Assembly (NCBI GenBank): GCA_013140455.1
Contig: JABFSU010000037.1
Coordinates: forward strand, 62,001-126,000
Reading direction: 5' to 3'
DNA length: 64,000 nucleotides
Source of the DNA: Nitrospira sp.
GTDB lineage: Bacteria > Nitrospirota > Nitrospiria > Nitrospirales > Nitrospiraceae
In this document: in pieces, positions 11,725 through 20,699 of the stretch
How the letters are laid out: each line of letters begins with the position of its first letter
Numbering within the stretch: position 1 is the first letter of the stretch
Notes under the pieces: model-generated
The model's database searches: none
Told to the model about the DNA's origin: nothing
The model's input: only the letters and a program-made list of their open reading frames with translations
Made by a program: the position numbers and the translations under genes

Positions 11725-12156
11725 TTACTGCAGCATCTGCGGACGTCTCTGCGAATGGTGTGGCTCTTCGACCATGGCAAAGAGCGGGAGGAGATCGCTC
11801 ATGGCGGCATCGGGGAGATGTTTCCAAAGAAATCGGCGAAGGCGTGAACGTTCGAGCGGGCTCACGCGTGCAAAGCTCAACCCGTACCGGGACCCGTCGA
11901 TCCACACGACCTGTGCATCCGTAATCAACACCGTCTGTGGAAGCTCAAGGACCAGGGCCAGTCTCTCCCCCACAATGAGACCGCTTTTGCTTTCGAGGCT
12001 GCAGCCGGCGTCGGAGAGATCCAGCAGGAGAGCCTTGCCGATCCGGCTTGTCGTATGCCGCTGCGCAAACTGCAGGCGCCTGGTCACGGTGATGCGATAG
12101 GTCCGTCGCTGGTCTGCTCGTGATTGATGATTCTGTTGGGCGGTGGCTGAAGACAT
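11725..12156 (-). CDS. PilZ domain protein
   Basis: RRTYR and DLSDAGCSLES motifs; start MSSATAQ at 12156. Confidence 0.8.
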   Translation of the reverse strand: MSSATAQQNHQSRADQRRTYRITVTRRLQFAQRHTTSRIGKALLLDLSDAGCSLESKSGLIVGERLALVLELPQTVLITDAQVVWIDGSRYGLSFARVSPLERSRLRRFLWKHLPDAAMSDLLPLFAMVEEPHHSQRRPQMLQ

Positions 12157-12170
12157 CGTGGGTGCTCCTG

Positions 12171-12566
12171 TTAAGCGTTCCCGCTGGTGCGCGTTGTGTG
12201 AAAGAATGACCTGAGAAACCGCTGTAGCCGGCGTTCTGACGTGGCCGGACTCTGTTGGGGTCTCAGCCCAAACCGGTGCTCGTTGACCCACGCGACCTGA
12301 GCCTGAATGACGAAGAGCGGATCGTTCTTGTCGGGCAGAGACAGAAACAGAGTGAGATCCATGTCGACCGTGACCGGTTGGTTGCCCCGGACGCCCAATC
12401 CTCCCCGCGACATGTCGACGACCGTGCCATTACCCATAATGACGTCGGTTTCATTCACCCCCGAATATATCAGGCCAAACGAGAGGGGGGTGCGGTCGAT
12501 CCCGCGTCGTTCAGTCATGGGGCTGTTAAGAAATCCTGGTGTCTTCAGGACAGGTGGCAGCTTCAT
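12171..12566 (-). CDS. PilZ domain protein
   Basis: RRGIDR and DMSRGGLGVRG motifs. Confidence 0.8.
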   Translation of the reverse strand: MKLPPVLKTPGFLNSPMTERRGIDRTPLSFGLIYSGVNETDVIMGNGTVVDMSRGGLGVRGNQPVTVDMDLTLFLSLPDKNDPLFVIQAQVAWVNEHRFGLRPQQSPATSERRLQRFLRSFFHTTRTSGNA

Positions 12567-12602
12567 AACCGGATCCTTTCCCGCCGTGACAGGCGTTGTG
12601 AC

Positions 12603-12971
12603 CTAGTGACAGTCGACGAGCGCATCCATCCACTCCATTGTTCCGATCTTTTGCTGTGGGAGCTGCATGCCGCACCGGTTCCCATTTACCCAGAGCACCC
12701 GAACTTGGGGAATGCAGAGTGGACGTTCAGAGCCTGGCACCTCGAGAAATAACGCGAGTTCCATCCCTTGTTTGAGTCCCCTGGTACCTGTGAGGCCGAA
12801 TCCGTGTCGGCTCAGGTCGACGAGGGTGGCGTGCCCTATCACGATCTTCTGATCGTCCGAGCCCGAATAGCGCACCTTAAATATTCCACCGATGCGCGGT
12901 TCCCGGCGCCGTTCCGCTCCGGCATCGAGGACTGCTACGGAGGATTTCGATTCTGTTTTCCACCAGCTCAT
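12603..12971 (-). CDS. PilZ domain protein
   Basis: RRREPR and DLSRHGFGLTG motifs. Confidence 0.8.
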   Translation of the reverse strand: MSWWKTESKSSVAVLDAGAERRREPRIGGIFKVRYSGSDDQKIVIGHATLVDLSRHGFGLTGTRGLKQGMELALFLEVPGSERPLCIPQVRVLWVNGNRCGMQLPQQKIGTMEWMDALVDCH

Positions 12972-13298
12972 TGTTCGAATGCTCCCTCTCTGTATCCGGT
13001 AGAAGCCTGGAGTAGGTTCTTGTTAACGGTGCGTCGCCTGATGGTTTGAAGGTACCGCAGGACCGGTAGTTTGACAGCCCCCTAGGCGGGGGATCAGACC
13101 ACCCTGCTGAAGAGGGGGCCCAGACGGTCGAAGCGCCGGTGCCTGTTCAAAAGTGGGCGGAAACGGACTTTGTCGCGGAATCCGCTACGAGACTGGTTTC
13201 TGGAGGTTGCTTGTGAAAGGAACGTTAGACTGGATGCGGGAGTTCGAGCGAAGAGACTGAGCCTGACTTGAGGAGAGATGATCTGCTCAAGCTGTGAA

Positions 13299-13326
13299 CA
13301 GGGATTCGGCTGTACAGCTATCCCTG
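13299..13326 (-). terminator. Strong hairpin directly after the PilZ stop codon
   Basis: CAGGGAT(13299-13305)...ATCCCTG(13320-13326) enclosing the palindrome GCTGTACAGC; adjacent to the minus-strand stop at 13327. No U tract seen. Confidence 0.4.
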
Positions 13327-13749
13327 CTACACCAGCCGGAATCGAGTCCGTTGGTTCTGAACCGTGTCGTGTGTAATGTTTTTCCAGAGGAAGGCTTGAA
13401 TGCGTTTGCGGTCGGTCTGGCTGAGTTGCATGAAACGAACGGAGAAATGACAGCCCGATACCCAGACGACATGGGCCGATGTGAGTCTCAACGGATCTTC
13501 TCCGTCTGGCAGCGCAATCGTCAATGATAACAAGGTTCCGCGGGTGACGGGGCGCTCACTGATCATCTTGCAGCCGGAGAGCGAGATATCTTTCGTGACC
13601 CCTTCGCCCTTGTGCGGCTGCGTCGGGACTTCTCCTGCGTAGCGCACCGGGCAGGTGACCGCCACCCGCTCGGAGTAGCGCTTGTCCAAGCTGGAATAGG
13701 CTGATTGGAAAGATTTCACCGCAGTTGATATCGGCCGTTTCATGAGCAC
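13327..13749 (-). CDS. PilZ domain protein
   Basis: RYSER and DISLSGCKMIS motifs. Confidence 0.8.
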   Translation of the reverse strand: MLMKRPISTAVKSFQSAYSSLDKRYSERVAVTCPVRYAGEVPTQPHKGEGVTKDISLSGCKMISERPVTRGTLLSLTIALPDGEDPLRLTSAHVVWVSGCHFSVRFMQLSQTDRKRIQAFLWKNITHDTVQNQRTRFRLV

Positions 13750-13973: not shown

Positions 13974-14489
13974 CTAAAACACCGTGCCGGAGTTTCCCTC
14001 TGAGAGTTTTTCGCGCAGGATGCGGCTTTCAAAGAAAATGACGCCACGTTCGATTCGCGACTCGTACCGGAGCGTGATTTCCGTATCGAACCCATGCCAG
14101 GCATAGACGCGGATCGGGCCGACTGAAATCTGTCCCGGCGTGCGATCGAGCGGACCATATTGGGTTTGCAGGTAGGCCAGGATCTGTTCGTGGGTATCTT
14201 TGCTCTGGTAGCGGACCAGCACGCGGCCGAATTTTCCATCGAACGTGGTGAAGCGCAAGACCTCAACCGGAATTGTGCCGAGCATCGGTTGCCCGGCCTT
14301 CAACTCATAGGACAGCAGCCGCCCCGCCTCTTCGACTTTCTTATACTGAGTGTCCTCCATCAGCGTCGATTCCCAGGGCAGGCCTTCAAACCCGTTTGGA
14401 TCGTTGAGAATTGGCACGGCCAGCGCCAGAGCTGACGGGAGCAGAAGTCCGAGAAGCATGGTGGCTACGCGCAATGGGAAGCGGTGCAT
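13974..14489 (-). CDS. Secreted hypothetical protein, paralog A
   Basis: Signal peptide (MLLGLLLPSALALAVP) then VPILNDPNGFEGLPW...YGPLDRTPGQ, similar to the next gene. Confidence 0.65.
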   Translation of the reverse strand: MHRFPLRVATMLLGLLLPSALALAVPILNDPNGFEGLPWESTLMEDTQYKKVEEAGRLLSYELKAGQPMLGTIPVEVLRFTTFDGKFGRVLVRYQSKDTHEQILAYLQTQYGPLDRTPGQISVGPIRVYAWHGFDTEITLRYESRIERGVIFFESRILREKLSEGNSGTVF

Positions 14490-14505: not shown

Positions 14506-15030
14506 TTACTCGGCGGAATCCGTAATGTGATCGTTGAATCGCGGTGCCAGCGTGCGGCTGTCGATGAAGATAAATCCGCGTTCGGTGTTGGCTTGATACG
14601 TCACATTGATCTCGGTTTCAGGTCCACGCCAATTATATTGCTGATTCAGTCCCCGTGCCATCTGCCCGGGGATGCGTTCCAACGGTCCGAATTGTGTTTC
14701 GAGGTATCGCATGACCTGGGCATGGGTCTGTTCGCCCTGGTAGCGAATGGTGACGCGGGCGAATTGATCATCGACCGAGAGGAGGAGGATGCTGGTCATC
14801 TCAGCTCCAGCGAAGGTCGCAGGGCCGGTCGTGGAGCGATATTCGGTAATATGAGGGCCGGTTCTCGACGGGACCACATCGGTGCGCCCGGCCAGCGCGG
14901 CGCCCCATCCGATACTCTGAAACCCTTTCGGGTCGTTGATCATCGGGACAGCAGAGACCGGCAACGTGTGCAGCACGCTGGAAACACAGACAAGCCCGAG
15001 GAGGAGATGGCGGAGCAGATGGTTAATCAT
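14506..15030 (-). CDS. Secreted hypothetical protein, paralog B
   Basis: MINHLLRHLLLGLVCVSSVLHTLPVSAVPMINDPKGFQSIGWG...QFGPLERIPGQ; start 15030 chosen because the signal peptide begins there. Confidence 0.65.
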   Translation of the reverse strand: MINHLLRHLLLGLVCVSSVLHTLPVSAVPMINDPKGFQSIGWGAALAGRTDVVPSRTGPHITEYRSTTGPATFAGAEMTSILLLSVDDQFARVTIRYQGEQTHAQVMRYLETQFGPLERIPGQMARGLNQQYNWRGPETEINVTYQANTERGFIFIDSRTLAPRFNDHITDSAE

Positions 15031-15108
15031 GGTGTCGCGGTCTATTCGAAAAGCGGTCCATCGTGGCACGCTACCATGGCGTCGAGACCGGCGCAACCGG
15101 ATGTTTTG

Positions 15109-15138
15109 TTGAGAATGCGCGCAGCCCTGTCTTATAAT
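15109..15138 (+). promoter_or_regulatory. Sigma70-like promoter for the phosphonate-type operon
   Basis: TTGAGA (15109-15114), 18-bp spacer, TATAAT (15133-15138), about 75 bp before ATG at 15213. Confidence 0.5.
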
Positions 15139-15212
15139 GCGCCGGCTTTTGGAACCAGTCCGCGTACGGGCGGGCTTATGCACAGTGGCACCGGCAAACG
15201 ATCGGGAGTGAG

Positions 15213-15710
15213 ATGATTGAAAGCGATGCATTTGTTCAGGCGCTCCAGGATATGGGGGGCGACTTCTTTACCGGAGTCCCCGACTCGATCCTGGGCGGCA
15301 TTATTGCGGAACTGATGGTGCGGCGGCTCTATACGCCGGCGGTGCGCGAAGACGAAGCGGTGGGGATGGCAGCCGGCGCCTACATGGCGGGGAAGATCCC
15401 TGCTGTGTTGATGCAGAATTCCGGGCTCGGCACCTCCCTCAATACACTCATCTCGCTGAACATGATTTACCGGCAGCCCTGCATTCTGATCGTGTCCTGG
15501 CGGGGCCAAGGGGGCAAGGATGCGCCGGAGCATCTGGTGATGGGCGAGGTGATGCCGCAATTCCTCGACACCATGAAGATTCCGCATCGGACGTTGACCG
15601 AGAAAACCGCCGTCGAAGATTTCAAGTGGGTCGCCGAGACCTTTATGAAGCAGCGCATTCCCGTTGCGCTGGTGATTACCAAGGGTGTCGTGAAAGGGTT
15701 GCATCCATGA
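15213..15710 (+). CDS. Phosphonopyruvate/sulfopyruvate decarboxylase, alpha (N-terminal TPP-enzyme) subunit
   Basis: FFTGVPDSILGGIIAEL, REDEAVGMAAGAYMAGKIPAVLMQNSGLGTSLN, ILIVSWRGQGGKDAPEHLVMG. Confidence 0.8.
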   Translation: MIESDAFVQALQDMGGDFFTGVPDSILGGIIAELMVRRLYTPAVREDEAVGMAAGAYMAGKIPAVLMQNSGLGTSLNTLISLNMIYRQPCILIVSWRGQGGKDAPEHLVMGEVMPQFLDTMKIPHRTLTEKTAVEDFKWVAETFMKQRIPVALVITKGVVKGLHP

Positions 15711-16285
15711 GACCTGAAGAAGGAACCCTGATCAGCCGGGCGCAGGCATTGGCCGCGCTCCTGGAATTACTGACCGACCAGCCGGTGATCATCTGCAACG
15801 GCTTCCCGTCGCGTGAGGCGCACAAGATTGCGGATCGTCCCACGCACTTTTACATGATCGGTTCCATGGGGAATGCTCCGGCGATCGCGCTGGGTGTGGC
15901 CCTGGCCAAGCCGAACAAGCAGGTCATCACCTTCGACGGCGACGGCAACGTGCTGATGGGGATGGGGACTCTCGCGACGGTCGGCGCATTGAAACCGAAA
16001 AATTTCATTCACGTGGTGTTCGATAACGAAGTGTATGGCACCACCGGCAACCAGCCGACTATTTCAAACGTGGTGCCGCTGGAGAAGGTCGCCAAGGCGG
16101 CCGGCTACGTCAATGTGGAGCGCGTGCTCGATCGCGAGGATCTCGTCTATGAGTTCAAAGATATGCTGAAGAAAGACGGGCCGAGCATGTTGCTGATCAA
16201 GGTCAACGAGTTCGCCGAAGATGCCGGGCGGGTGCTCCATGAGCCGCCGGACATTACGAAACGGTTCATGAAAGCAATTGAGTGA
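15707..16285 (+). CDS. Phosphonopyruvate/sulfopyruvate decarboxylase, beta (C-terminal TPP-binding) subunit
   Basis: FDGDGNVLMGMGTLATVGALKPKNFIHVVFDNEVYGTTGNQPT TPP-binding motif; start overlaps the alpha-subunit stop. Confidence 0.82.
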   Translation: MRPEEGTLISRAQALAALLELLTDQPVIICNGFPSREAHKIADRPTHFYMIGSMGNAPAIALGVALAKPNKQVITFDGDGNVLMGMGTLATVGALKPKNFIHVVFDNEVYGTTGNQPTISNVVPLEKVAKAAGYVNVERVLDREDLVYEFKDMLKKDGPSMLLIKVNEFAEDAGRVLHEPPDITKRFMKAIE

Positions 16286-16406
16286 TTAGGGAGCGCGAGA
16301 GACTCCTCTTGTGCTCGCTGACCGCGCACGATCAGAATATGCTCGGTCAATGCTCCGCAATGAAGAGGAGCCTCCCGCGCTCCCATGGAAAGAGGAAGGG
16401 ACAGAC

Positions 16407-17489
16407 GTGATTTTATTGAATCCAGGCCCCGTCAATGTGTCAGAGCGTGTGCGGCAGGCGTTGTTGCGGCCGGATATCTGCCATCGCGAATCCGAGTTCA
16501 CCGAGTTGCTGTTCCGGATTCAGGACAAGTTACTGAAGGCCTTTGTGCCGGGGGCGGAAGCCGACTATGCTGCGGTGCTCATCACAGGCTCCGGCACCGC
16601 GGCGGTTGAATCCGCCTTGATGTCGGCGATCCCCCACGGCAAGCGGGCGCTGGTGTTGAATAACGGCGTGTACGGTGAGCGCTTGTCCCAGATGGTCGGC
16701 TTGCACCGGTTGGGTGTCTCCGAACTCAAGTATGAGTGGACCACCCGGCCGGATCCTGAGCGTCTCCGGCTGGCTCTCCGGCAGCATCCTGAAATCCATG
16801 CGGTGGCCATGGTCCATCATGAAACCACCACCGGCCTGATTAATCCGGTGAAAGAGATTGCCGATGTGGTCGATAGTCAGAACCGCGCGTTCATTCTCGA
16901 TGCCGTCAGCGGGCTTGGCGGAGAAACCATCGATATTGCCGGGTCGCACATCTATATGGTGGCGGGCACGGCCGGCAAATGCATCCAAGGATTTCCCGGC
17001 GTGTCCTTCGTGCTGGTGCGCAAGGGGTTCCTCGAGCGGATGCGCCAGTATCCCAAACGGTCGTGGTATCTCCACCTCACGCATTATGTGGACGATCAAG
17101 GCCGTGGCACGATTCCCTTCACGCCGGCGGTGCAGGCGTTTTACGGGTTTGATGAAGCCTTGAGCGAATTGTTGGAAGAGGGTGTGGCGAACCGGATTCA
17201 ACGCTATAAAAAGGCGTCGACCTTGATTCGCGCGCGGATGGCGAAGCTGGGAATCAAGCCGATACTGACGCCCGAGCGTCAGTCGAACACCATTACCGCC
17301 TATTCGCTCCCTGACGGTGTGACGTATGACCGGTTACACGATCGCCTCAAGGCGCAGGGCTATGTCATCTATGCGGGGCAGGGACAATTGGAAAGCAAGA
17401 TTTTCCGTGTGGCCAATATGGGCGCGTTGACCGAGGCGCAGTTGACCGGATTTCTCGACGCCTTCGAACAGGCATGTAAACCGGCATGA
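16407..17489 (+). CDS. phnW: 2-aminoethylphosphonate:pyruvate transaminase-like class V aminotransferase
   Basis: (M)ILLNPGPVNVSERVRQALLRPDICHRESEF...GSGTAAVESAL...HHETTTGLINPVKEIADVV...TAGKCIQGFPGVSFVLVRK. In-frame GTG at 16407 gives the canonical N-terminus. Confidence 0.8.
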   Translation: MILLNPGPVNVSERVRQALLRPDICHRESEFTELLFRIQDKLLKAFVPGAEADYAAVLITGSGTAAVESALMSAIPHGKRALVLNNGVYGERLSQMVGLHRLGVSELKYEWTTRPDPERLRLALRQHPEIHAVAMVHHETTTGLINPVKEIADVVDSQNRAFILDAVSGLGGETIDIAGSHIYMVAGTAGKCIQGFPGVSFVLVRKGFLERMRQYPKRSWYLHLTHYVDDQGRGTIPFTPAVQAFYGFDEALSELLEEGVANRIQRYKKASTLIRARMAKLGIKPILTPERQSNTITAYSLPDGVTYDRLHDRLKAQGYVIYAGQGQLESKIFRVANMGALTEAQLTGFLDAFEQACKPA

Positions 17490-18205
17490 AGGCGATCATT
17501 CTGGCCGCGGGAGTCGGCAAGCGACTCTGGCCCGTGACGCAGCATCACCCGAAGTGTCTCATCAAGATCGGGGGCCAGACCCTACTGCATCGCTATCTGA
17601 CCTTGTTGGCCAGCGTGGGGGTCCGTCAGGCCGACATCGTCGTGGGGTACAAGCAGGAGATGATTCGTGCCGCCGTCGAATCCGACGATTGCGGGGTGCG
17701 GGTCAATTTCCTGGTGAACGAGCAGTTTCATCGGGGCAGTATCTCGTCCTTGTGGATCGCCAGGACTGCGTTCACCGAGGACACGATTGTCATGGATGCG
17801 GACGTGCTCTTTCATCGGGAAATCTTGCAGCGGCTGGTAAGTTCGTCTTACGAGAATGCACTGCTGATGGATGAGTCGGTGAAGCAGACCGGCGAAGAAT
17901 GTATGGTTGTGGTCGAAGGCGGGCGAGTGATCGCGCTGACGAAAACCATGCCGCCGCGGTATGAGTATGCAGGGGAAGGCGTGGGGTTTCTCAAGGTGCG
18001 GCATGCCGATTCGCCGCATGTCGTCGCCTCGCTCCGGAAGTTTATTGACCGGGAAGCCTGGCAGATGGAGTATGAAGACGCGCTGATTGACTTCTTCCTC
18101 GCTGTGAAGGTCGGTCATGAAAAAATAGGCGGGTTGCCGTGGACCGAGATCGATTTCCCGGAAGATGTGACGAAGGCTGAGCGTGAGATCCTACCAAGGC
18201 TCTAG
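17486..18205 (+). CDS. NTP transferase, LicC/PntC-like sugar- or phosphonate-nucleotidyltransferase
   Basis: MKAIILAAGVGKRLWPVTQHHPKCLIKIGGQTLL; NEQFHRGSISSLWIA; C-terminal WTEIDFPEDVTKAEREI; overlaps the previous stop. Confidence 0.78.
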   Translation: MKAIILAAGVGKRLWPVTQHHPKCLIKIGGQTLLHRYLTLLASVGVRQADIVVGYKQEMIRAAVESDDCGVRVNFLVNEQFHRGSISSLWIARTAFTEDTIVMDADVLFHREILQRLVSSSYENALLMDESVKQTGEECMVVVEGGRVIALTKTMPPRYEYAGEGVGFLKVRHADSPHVVASLRKFIDREAWQMEYEDALIDFFLAVKVGHEKIGGLPWTEIDFPEDVTKAEREILPRL

Positions 18206-18271
18206 GACGTGATGTGTCCGTGACGTTCCATCGGTTCTGCACGTGACGAGCAGCGAACCCCGGGTTATCCA

Positions 18272-19696
18272 ATGAGTGAAAGTCTCATCCAGCATCGCGC
18301 GGAAGTTCAGGGACTAGCGACCGCCATTCTCTTACCCTCGGTCAGTGTCTTTGGCGAATCCTTTGATCGTGTGCCGGGCAGTGCCGGTCCTCTGACGCAG
18401 GTCGTGGGGATCGGGCTGTTTCAACGTGCCGTGCTCACGCTGCAACGGGCCGGCATTCGGCAATTGATCGTGCTCGCCGGTCCGGAAGAAGACCAACTCA
18501 AGCAGGCGTTGGGCCGTGGGCCGCGCGTCACCATTCCCGTGCGGTGGATGCCGATCCGGGAGTTCCCGCTCGATGATCCGCGCACCTGGGAGGCGATGGC
18601 GGCGGAAGTCCCTGGATTCTGCCTGGTCGCGAGCGTGCGAGGCGTGTTCTCGCGTGGCCTGATCGAAAGTCTGCGCCGTGAAGTGCAGGAGGGACAGGCC
18701 ATTCTGGTGGCGCAGCCGGCGGTACGGCGGGTGGCGGGAGATCGACGGGTTGCGGTCAAAGTGCAGGCCGAGCGGCTGTTGGCGCTCGGAACGTCCCGAG
18801 GTGAAGATGCGACACTGGTTGCGGCGGACTTGCTGGTCCTGCCGGCCGGCCTCATGGCCGCGGCACAGGATACTCAAACACCTCCCGGAGCCATGCCGAT
18901 CCGACGATGGATTGAGCGGGCAGCGATCGATGGGCGGGTACGGGTGTTGCGGACGGACGAGCATCCCTCGCAGTGGTATCAGGATGTGCGGACGCAAGCT
19001 GAGGTCCCAGCCGCCGAACGGAAGCTGTTCTCCTCGCTCAAGGGCGAGTTCGAGGGATTCGTCGATCGCTATTTCAATCGCAAGGTATCCCGCTGGTTCA
19101 CCCGGCTCTTTCTGGCGTTGGGGGCGTCCCCCAACGCCATTACGATGGTGGCCACAGTCGTGGGGCTCCTGGCTGCCGTGGGATTTGGAGTCGGGACCTA
19201 TGAGGCGGCCATTGTGGCGGCGGTTCTGTTTCAATTTGCGGCGGTGATTGATTGTTGCGACGGCGAAGTGGCCCGGCTCACGTTTACGGAGTCTCCGTTC
19301 GGCGCCTGGCTTGATATCGCGATGGATAATGTCGTGCATATGGCTATCTTTGCCGGAATTGCCGTGGGGGCCTACCAACAGACGGCCGGGCAGGCCGGGG
19401 CCTGGATTCCGCTCGCGTTGGGTGCGGTTGCCGTGCTCGGAAACGCCTTCTCGTTTCTGTTGGTCAATCGGGCGCAGAAGATCAACGCGGCCAGCGGCTG
19501 GAAGACGTCGGTCCATGCGGCCTGGTCCGAGTTCATGCTGAAGAATGTCGCCAGCCGTGATTTTTCCGTGATCGTCCTGATCGCGGCATTGGCGAGCAAG
19601 CTGGATTGGTTTCTCTGGATGGCCTCAGCCGGCTCTTTGGTGTTCACTGCGCTGATGCTGTGGGTTGTTCGTCCGTCAGCCAGATCTCGTGCTTAG
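18272..19696 (+). CDS. CDP-alcohol phosphatidyltransferase with degenerate N-terminal nucleotidyltransferase-like domain
   Basis: DCCDGEVARLTFTESPFGAWLDIAMD fits D-x2-DG-x2-AR-x8-G-x3-D-x3-D exactly; the N-terminal ~230 aa is soluble. Confidence 0.82.
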   Translation: MSESLIQHRAEVQGLATAILLPSVSVFGESFDRVPGSAGPLTQVVGIGLFQRAVLTLQRAGIRQLIVLAGPEEDQLKQALGRGPRVTIPVRWMPIREFPLDDPRTWEAMAAEVPGFCLVASVRGVFSRGLIESLRREVQEGQAILVAQPAVRRVAGDRRVAVKVQAERLLALGTSRGEDATLVAADLLVLPAGLMAAAQDTQTPPGAMPIRRWIERAAIDGRVRVLRTDEHPSQWYQDVRTQAEVPAAERKLFSSLKGEFEGFVDRYFNRKVSRWFTRLFLALGASPNAITMVATVVGLLAAVGFGVGTYEAAIVAAVLFQFAAVIDCCDGEVARLTFTESPFGAWLDIAMDNVVHMAIFAGIAVGAYQQTAGQAGAWIPLALGAVAVLGNAFSFLLVNRAQKINAASGWKTSVHAAWSEFMLKNVASRDFSVIVLIAALASKLDWFLWMASAGSLVFTALMLWVVRPSARSRA

Positions 19697-20699
19697 ACTC
19701 CTGCTACTGCTCGTCGGCTGTCTCACGCTCGGTCTCATTGTTTGGCATATCGGTCCCGTGAATATCTATGAGGCCGCGACCAGACTCGGCCCTGTGGCCC
19801 TGGGCGTCATCCTCATTCCCTCCTTCGTCATGTATGCCGTCGAGGCCTATGGCTGGAAGGTCACGCTTGGTCCGGCCGGCCGCTCGGTCTCATTCCTGCG
19901 GGTCTTTGCCGTTCGCACCGCCGGCGAAGTGGTGAACATGACTACGCCGACGGCCTATGTCGGCGGCGAACCGCTTAAAGCGTATCTACTGCAGAAATCC
20001 GGCGTGCCGATGGTGGAAGGGTTGGCTTCCGTCGTCATCGCCAAGACGACTATGACTATCGCGCAGGTGCTGTTCATTCTTCTGGGGATCGGGTTGGGGT
20101 TCTGGGTTCTGGGCGCGCAGGGTTCGTCGGGGCAAATCGTGGCGGCAGGGTTGCTGAGCATCGGGCTATTGGCCTTCGGGACCATGGCGTTTGTCTTCGT
20201 CCAGCGGCGCGGTCTTTTTACCTGGATCCTGGAGACGCTACGGAGGCTCGGCATCCGGATCGGCTTTCTCGAAGCGCGGGAGGACAAGCTGCGTGAGCTT
20301 GATCGGACGATTCTGAATTTCTATACCCGACATCAGGCGGCGTTCTATGCATCTACCGGCCTGTACTTTCTGGGGTGGCTGGCTGAGGCGCTGGAAGTGT
20401 TCGTGATTATCTCCTATCTTGGAGGCCCGGCCGATCTATGGTCGGCGATCTCGATCGGGGCCCTTTCCGTCTTCATCAAAGGCGGGACGTTCTTCATTCC
20501 CGGCAGCCTCGGCGCGCAGGACGGCGGCAATCTGCTGTTGCTCCAGGCCTTCGGCTATTCGGATGTCACCGGAATTACCTTCGCGCTGCTGCGGCGATTC
20601 CGTGAGTTGGTCTGGATCGGGATCGGGTTGGTGTGTCTCTCGCTGATGGGCAATCAAACAGGCGTTGCTCAGAAAGGTTCTCCCAAGTACGATTTGTGA
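19689..20699 (+). CDS. Flippase-like / lysylphosphatidylglycerol synthase TM-region protein
   Basis: TAGEVVNMTTPTAYVGGEPLKAYLLQKSGV...SVVIAKTTMTIAQVLFILLG; GTG start at 19689 overlapping the upstream stop. Confidence 0.75.
   Translation: MLRLLLLLVGCLTLGLIVWHIGPVNIYEAATRLGPVALGVILIPSFVMYAVEAYGWKVTLGPAGRSVSFLRVFAVRTAGEVVNMTTPTAYVGGEPLKAYLLQKSGVPMVEGLASVVIAKTTMTIAQVLFILLGIGLGFWVLGAQGSSGQIVAAGLLSIGLLAFGTMAFVFVQRRGLFTWILETLRRLGIRIGFLEAREDKLRELDRTILNFYTRHQAAFYASTGLYFLGWLAEALEVFVIISYLGGPADLWSAISIGALSVFIKGGTFFIPGSLGAQDGGNLLLLQAFGYSDVTGITFALLRRFRELVWIGIGLVCLSLMGNQTGVAQKGSPKYDL

Follow-up and report, generated by a model that had tools for sequence, protein, structure and literature searches.

A probable phosphonolipid operon in Nitrospira and a divergent mutase-like protein that alternates with canonical PEP mutase among relatives

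We analyzed a stretch of 64,000 nucleotides from a Nitrospira sp. genome (contig JABFSU010000037.1; hereafter the window). Six contiguous + strand genes at 15213-20699 probably encode the downstream part of a phosphonolipid pathway, in which 2-aminoethylphosphonate (AEP) would be attached to a lipid. The genes overlap or are narrowly spaced, with short overlaps at three junctions (ppdA/ppdB, phnW/pntC and cdp-ap/hpnL). They are assigned to the two subunits of a phosphonopyruvate decarboxylase (Ppd), a PhnW-like AEP transaminase (AEPT), a stand-alone PntC-type NTP transferase (NTPT), a CDP-alcohol phosphotransferase (CDP-AP) and an HpnL-like membrane protein. The original prediction for this region had arranged six such open reading frames into a route from phosphonopyruvate through phosphonoacetaldehyde, AEP and cytidine monophosphate (CMP)-AEP to transfer and flipping. 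All six frames lie on the + strand where they were expected, their families agree by Pfam, NCBIfam and best solved relatives, and the route fits every gene. Far beyond what chance would produce, essentially all Nitrospira genomes examined share the gene order PpdA-PpdB-PhnW-NTPT-CDP-AP-HpnL. Among 99 relatives within the taxonomic order, 96 give a CDP-AP match, and the catalytic residues of the operon are invariant across approximately 55 homologues.

The original prediction had staked its route on the genome encoding a phosphoenolpyruvate (PEP) mutase, and a canonical PepM is indeed present. It is the only PEP mutase of the genome (G000:C91:22344-23156) and lies on a separate contig from the operon. 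The protein is a PepM-PntC-like fusion of 544 amino acids whose motif EDKLFPKTNS fits the consensus EDK(X)5NS, and it scores 379-382 bits against a TIGR02320 cut-off of 319.55. Its two immediate same-strand neighbours have no NCBIfam match, and no Ppd gene is adjacent. In this genome, then, pepM is not inside the cluster, although a PepM-like gene adjoins the operon in relatives with the second mutase type described below. Since pepM is on another contig, the pathway appears to be complete but split over two loci.

In the proposed pathway, the unlinked PepM-PntC fusion would convert PEP to phosphonopyruvate, which PpdA/PpdB would decarboxylate to phosphonoacetaldehyde. The PhnW-like enzyme would aminate this product to AEP, and the stand-alone PntC would activate AEP to CMP-AEP. 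In the transfer step, CDP-AP would take the AEP phosphonate off CMP and attach it to an alcohol in the membrane, for which a lipid such as diacylglycerol is the likeliest candidate; the product would then be flipped by the HpnL-like protein. In approximately 40% of Nitrospira genomes, a divergent PepM-like-PntC fusion beside the operon would carry out the mutase step instead. AEP synthesis and activation to CMP-AEP are well supported. The analysis establishes the gene content, its conservation, the catalytic residues, the presence of PepM and the reciprocal exchange of the two mutases; every substrate is inferred, as are the flipping and the acceptor, for which the enzyme class of CDP-AP and its HpnL-like partner point to a lipid.

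The Ppd and AEP transaminase pair that marks phosphonolipid and Pnt clusters is present. PpdA scores 130.8 bits on TIGR03297, versus 108.4 on the sulfopyruvate alpha family TIGR03845. The best solved relative of PpdB is 9IZ3, a “putative Ppd beta subunit” (E 1.4e-27), and its GDG...N thiamine pyrophosphate (TPP) motif is invariant in 54 homologues. Family scans place the transaminase in the class V aminotransferases, nearest to PhnW/AepZ. Its best solved relatives are 1M32 and the AEPT domain of 6PD1, and K223 is present in all 55 homologues that cover this position.

The NTPT has as its best solved relative 6PD1, the PntC of Treponema denticola (Tde-PntC), matched over the full length (E 2.2e-13), and is closer to Tde-PntC than to LicC. 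R13, K23, K153 and E197 are invariant in its homologues, and the equivalents of Tde-PntC R15, K25, K153 and E196 are retained; mutation data for the catalytic and pocket residues of Tde-PntC are available (PMC6697681). The PntC signature GXG(T/S)R...PK can be recognized as GVGKR...PK23, in which Lys replaces T/S. The enzyme is therefore predicted to make CMP-AEP from CTP and AEP, although its preference for AEP over phosphocholine is not proven. A second cytidylyltransferase-like domain is fused to PepM. The arginine at the R15 position is missing in both kinds of PepM-fused domain, which makes the stand-alone NTPT the likelier AEP cytidylyltransferase. Characterized PntCs are likewise encoded apart from the PepM-fused domain (PMC6697681). 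Across many phyla, the PepM-fused C-terminal domains (loci L003, L026-L044, L049-L133 and L159-L200) mostly read AASRG or AAGFEK rather than GxG(T/S)R. A plasmid search returned only distant LicC-like matches.

Nearly all relatives have a PEP mutase, which comes in two kinds: canonical type A (approximately 390 bits) and divergent type B (approximately 270 bits). Within the genus Nitrospira, type A occurs in 34 genomes, including this one, and type B in 23. None has both, versus 13 expected under independence if ancestry is ignored. In a phylum sample of 396 genomes, 96 have type A and 41 type B, again without overlap. Type A is distal to the operon. In every type-B genome whose contig extends far enough, type B and the operon are separated just by two divergent genes, upA and upB. 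A tree of the concatenated sequences of five operon proteins implies 6 changes of mutase state, of which at least 3 fall on strongly supported branches. The exchange is always reciprocal; with so few independent exchanges, a sign test cannot become significant. Decayed type-B fragments remain beside the operon in at least five type-A genomes (G007, G019, G038, G041 and G054). Mutual exclusion, reciprocal exchange and type-B remnants together form the pattern expected if both mutases do the same job.

Two further arrangements involving PepM were observed. In many Nitrospirota, a second Ppd follows the distal type-A PepM (L032-L035, L037, L043, L044, L110, L111 and L123); the window's genome has none. 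One Nitrospira genome carries an additional PepM (G036:C5, L210 6057-6902) with an N-terminal CTP_transf_like-type domain in a Fom1-like arrangement and the motif EDKKGLKRNS, which suggests a second, different phosphonate pathway.

On balance, we favor the view that type B functions as a PEP mutase and belongs to a deep-branching class, filtered out until now, with a lyase-like active-site loop (N122C, K116N). It could then be an extant intermediate between C-P mutases and C-C lyases, and the phosphonate makers of Nitrospirota, together with at least sporadic ones in Acidobacteria, Planctomycetota and Proteobacteria, would be undercounted by surveys that demand EDK(X)5NS or the TIGR02320 cut-off. 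It is unlikely, though to be taken seriously, that the type-B protein of the 23 genomes is instead a lyase or a phosphonopyruvate hydrolase. All type-B sequences checked have the loop EDN[VI][YF]PKRCS in place of EDK(X)5NS, and their scores of 258-293 bits fall below the TIGR02320 cut-off; therefore, we describe type B as working like PEP mutase rather than as a member of the family. Relative to PEP mutase it carries K116N, T121R, N122C and L48F (Mytilus numbering). Position 122 is thus Cys, as in lyases of the isocitrate lyase family, and phosphonopyruvate hydrolase, too, departs from PEP mutase there (Thr).

Other residues point the opposite way. Type B retains W44, G47, D58, D85, D87, E114, K120, S123, R159 and H190, among which the metal- and substrate-binding D58, D85, D87, E114, K120, S123, R159 and H190 are invariant in 19 sequences. 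At the corresponding positions, lyases have Y/H44, Q116, C122, G123, H124 and E190, whereas type B has the mutase-type W44, S123, F124 and H190. In a PepM tree that excludes the motif columns, a long branch with full support places type B on the side of the mutases, where it is basal to all canonical PepM plus phosphonopyruvate hydrolase; the best tree shows a basal grade, and a single type-B clade is not rejected (p-AU 0.40). The structural model of type B is closest to the PEP mutase 5UNC. Its genomic context also resembles that of a mutase. Type B carries a PntC-like domain of the kind also fused to canonical PepM, and it is the first gene of a Ppd-PhnW-NTPT operon in metagenome-assembled genomes of Acidobacteria (L141) and Planctomycetota (L142) and precedes Ppd at a contig end in one of Proteobacteria (L140). 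The slot it occupies in these three other phyla is the one that canonical PepM fills elsewhere. The exclusion of canonical PepM, the three to six reciprocal exchanges and the decayed copies are likewise at odds with a lyase or hydrolase. Tree, residues and operon slot led us to reject an ordinary lyase.

The CDP-AP motif D327xxDGxxAR...GxxxDxxxD is invariant in 58 homologues. The best fold matches to an AlphaFold model of the protein are IPCT-DIPPS 4MND (Foldseek E 2.6e-15) and AF2299, and the protein shares their fusion of a nucleotidyltransferase-like domain to a CDP-AP fold. Its N-terminal domain is degenerate, lacking the GxGxR...PK nucleotide-binding signature. The flippase-like protein scores 105.7 bits on PF03706 and 151.6 on the HpnL subfamily TIGR03476, whose cut-off is 195.65. 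NTPT, CDP-AP and HpnL thus occur in one cluster, although the HpnL subfamily score is below its cut-off. Since a phosphatidylserine decarboxylase is present, phosphatidylethanolamine can probably still be made, and we rejected the idea that a phosphonolipid replaces it.

CDP-AP enzymes are integral membrane proteins that mostly act on lipids or small polyols. This property bears on a rather improbable alternative, namely that the same AEP and CMP-AEP chemistry serves a glycan or a glycan-lipid intermediate, as in phosphonoglycans or the tailoring of an exopolysaccharide. A large glycosyltransferase and polysaccharide region, with GDSL and flippase genes, directly follows the operon (20946-58000), and PntC systems often decorate glycans (PMC6697681). 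However, in most relatives these glycan genes are not kept beside the operon, unlike CDP-AP and HpnL, which argues for a lipid over a particular glycan and led us to reject a tie to the downstream cluster. The operon also contains no LicD-type glycan phosphotransferase.

Several observations weigh against the phosphonolipid reading. The transaminase scores 348.2 bits on TIGR03301, 12.6 short of the equivalog cut-off of 360.8. In the AEP-selective pocket of Tde-PntC, formed by Glu104 and Glu196, the NTPT keeps Glu196 but has Asp at position 104, as in LicC. With one cytidylyltransferase-like domain standing alone and another fused to PepM, the division of labour between them could go either way. 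CDP-AP enzymes also take CDP-diacylglycerol with polar alcohols, so the direction of donor and acceptor is not fixed by the sequence. In G282, G299 and G405, whose assemblies are 90-95% complete, no PepM was found although the whole operon is there. Finally, genera g17, g20 and g27 of the same family include five near-complete genomes that contain Ppd-PhnW but no PepM at all, so this pair can have another role and alone is no proof of phosphonate synthesis. NTPT, CDP-AP and HpnL are also missing in all four of their loci that were examined, and the joint loss supports the linkage of PepM with these three genes. The four loci (L233, L234, L235 and L236, from G154, G353, G226 and G344) keep PpdA-PpdB-PhnW and upB, and two of them upA; in L233 and L234, a gene for CstA, of the pyruvate symporter family, lies downstream.

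The PepM-less genomes could also fit a very improbable reading, in which the substrates of the TPP enzyme and the transaminase are sulfonates, leading from sulfopyruvate through sulfoacetaldehyde to taurine, and NTPT and CDP-AP form a separate activity that only happens to be adjacent. For PpdB, moreover, the match to sulfopyruvate decarboxylase beta (186.1 bits) is slightly stronger than that to its half of Ppd (174.6). Yet both subunits miss the cut-offs for sulfopyruvate decarboxylase (ComDE), at 108.4 versus 147.95 for TIGR03845 and 186.1 versus 221.5 for TIGR03846. The preference of the alpha subunit for Ppd, the nearest solved relative of PpdB and the first matches of the transaminase, which are AEP transaminases, all favor phosphonates, and almost every genome that has the full operon also has PepM, adjacent or elsewhere. 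ComA was not found in the window's own genome, so we rejected a coenzyme M-type sulfopyruvate route. Scarcely any probability attaches to an IPCT/DIPPS-like polyol system, in which the NTPT would supply a CDP-polyol and CDP-AP would form either an osmolyte of the di-polyol phosphate type or a lipid resembling archaetidylinositol: IPCT-DIPPS is a near family of both proteins and 4MND is the best fold match, but the contiguous Ppd-AEPT pair would be left unexplained, the N-terminal domain of CDP-AP lacks its signature, and the absence of inositol-1-phosphate synthase from the genome (no PF01658 match) led us to reject the inositol/DIPPS route.

We now note properties of the locus beyond those in Table 1. 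The transaminase probably starts at GTG 16404, given that homologues begin there and that a Shine-Dalgarno-like GGAAGG lies upstream. For upB, the divergent open reading frame at 14506-15231, the likely start is 15030. The divergent intergenic region then has room for the promoter-like site, 11 of whose 12 positions agree with the consensus. upB adjoins the operon in nearly all relatives, and its N terminus, read from the sequence as MINHLLRHLLLGLVCVSSVLHTLPVSA, resembles a signal peptide. Neither upA nor upB has a Pfam match. In type-B genomes PepM-PntC lies directly beyond them, and they are possibly part of the phosphonolipid system. Upstream of the operon (11725-13749, - strand), small PilZ-like paralogues stand in a row that is kept nearby in many relatives.

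Table 1 Features of the operon and its divergent neighbours (window coordinates)
Feature	Coordinates	Strand	Basis
ppdA, phosphonopyruvate decarboxylase alpha (pyrimidine-binding) subunit	15213..15710	+	PF02776; TIGR03297
ppdB, phosphonopyruvate decarboxylase beta (TPP-binding) subunit	15704..16285	+	PF02775; 9IZ3; TPP motif
phnW/AEPT, 2-aminoethylphosphonate transaminase	16311..17489, likely start GTG 16404	+	TIGR03301; 1M32; 6PD1
pntC, stand-alone LicC/PntC-type cytidylyltransferase (NTPT)	17486..18205	+	6PD1; invariant catalytic residues
CDP-alcohol phosphotransferase (CDP-AP), degenerate N-terminal nucleotidyltransferase-like domain	18272..19696	+	PF01066; motif; 4MND, AF2299
HpnL-like / LPG_synthase_TM integral membrane protein, candidate flippase	19665..20699	+	PF03706; TIGR03476
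Sigma-70-like promoter TTGAGA-N18-TATAAT	15109..15138	+	Divergent intergenic region, ~75 nt before ppdA; consensus match
upB, conserved divergent predicted secreted protein	14506..15030	-	Position conserved; signal-peptide-like N terminus
upA, probable upB paralogue	13974..14489	-	Shares NDPxGF after leader with upB

If the phosphonolipid reading is true, Nitrospira, nitrite oxidizers that are abundant in soils and wastewater, would be near-universal makers of a C-P headgroup; the phosphorus redox cycle would gain a further source, and there would be a lipid trait to look for. Two surveys required EDK(X)5NS (PMC6697681 and PMC8931226), and the latter also applied trusted cut-offs. Because type B lacks this motif and scores below the TIGR02320 cut-off, surveys based on either would miss it. 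We found no description of the near-universal operon in Nitrospira, or of an exchangeable mutase lacking the motif, in the open-access literature, whose coverage is incomplete.

A phosphonolipid cluster was previously proposed in lichen-associated Nostoc and in Burkholderia (PMC5987646 Fig. 7, after Yu et al. 2013). Like the window, it has a CDP-alcohol phosphatidyltransferase, an NTP transferase, pepM, ppd, an AEP transaminase and hpnL. The kind of operon in the window is therefore already known, and the original prediction's view that such a pathway would be notable is tempered by this precedent. The set PepM, Ppd, AEPT, NTPT, CDP-AP and HpnL also occurs in Burkholderia, Pandoraea, Udaeobacter and Desulfobacca, and clusters related to it have a wide distribution. 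In contrast to the Nostoc and Burkholderia cluster, pepM of this genome is on another contig as a PepM-PntC fusion, CDP-AP has a degenerate N-terminal nucleotidyltransferase domain (most Burkholderia matches span the CDP-AP part only), and the locus adds upA/upB.

The Pnt pathway, known from PntC of Treponema denticola and Atopobium rimae (PMC6697681), also combines a stand-alone LicC-like cytidylyltransferase beside Ppd/AEPT with a PepM-fused NTPT, and the window NTPT shares its catalytic R15/K25/K153. In Nitrospira, however, the transfer step would fall to CDP-AP instead of LicD or a glycosyltransferase, the PepM-fused domains lack the R15-position arginine, and E104 is Asp in the NTPT. IPCT-DIPPS of Archaeoglobus (4MND) and AF2299 (4O6M) likewise join a cytosolic nucleotidyltransferase-like domain to a CDP-AP membrane domain, but the N-terminal domain in the window is without the nucleotide-binding signature and the genome without inositol-1-phosphate synthase. 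Compared with the PEP mutase of Mytilus edulis (1PYM) and TIGR02320, PepM of this genome has all listed active-site residues and EDK(X)5NS, while type B of the relatives differs by the four substitutions given above and falls below the curated cut-off. Phosphonopyruvate hydrolase (2DUA), like type B, differs from PEP mutase at position 122 and has Phe at 48. By contrast, the hydrolase has Thr122 and K116, whereas type B has Cys122 and reaches 260 bits versus the hydrolase cut-off of 374.4.

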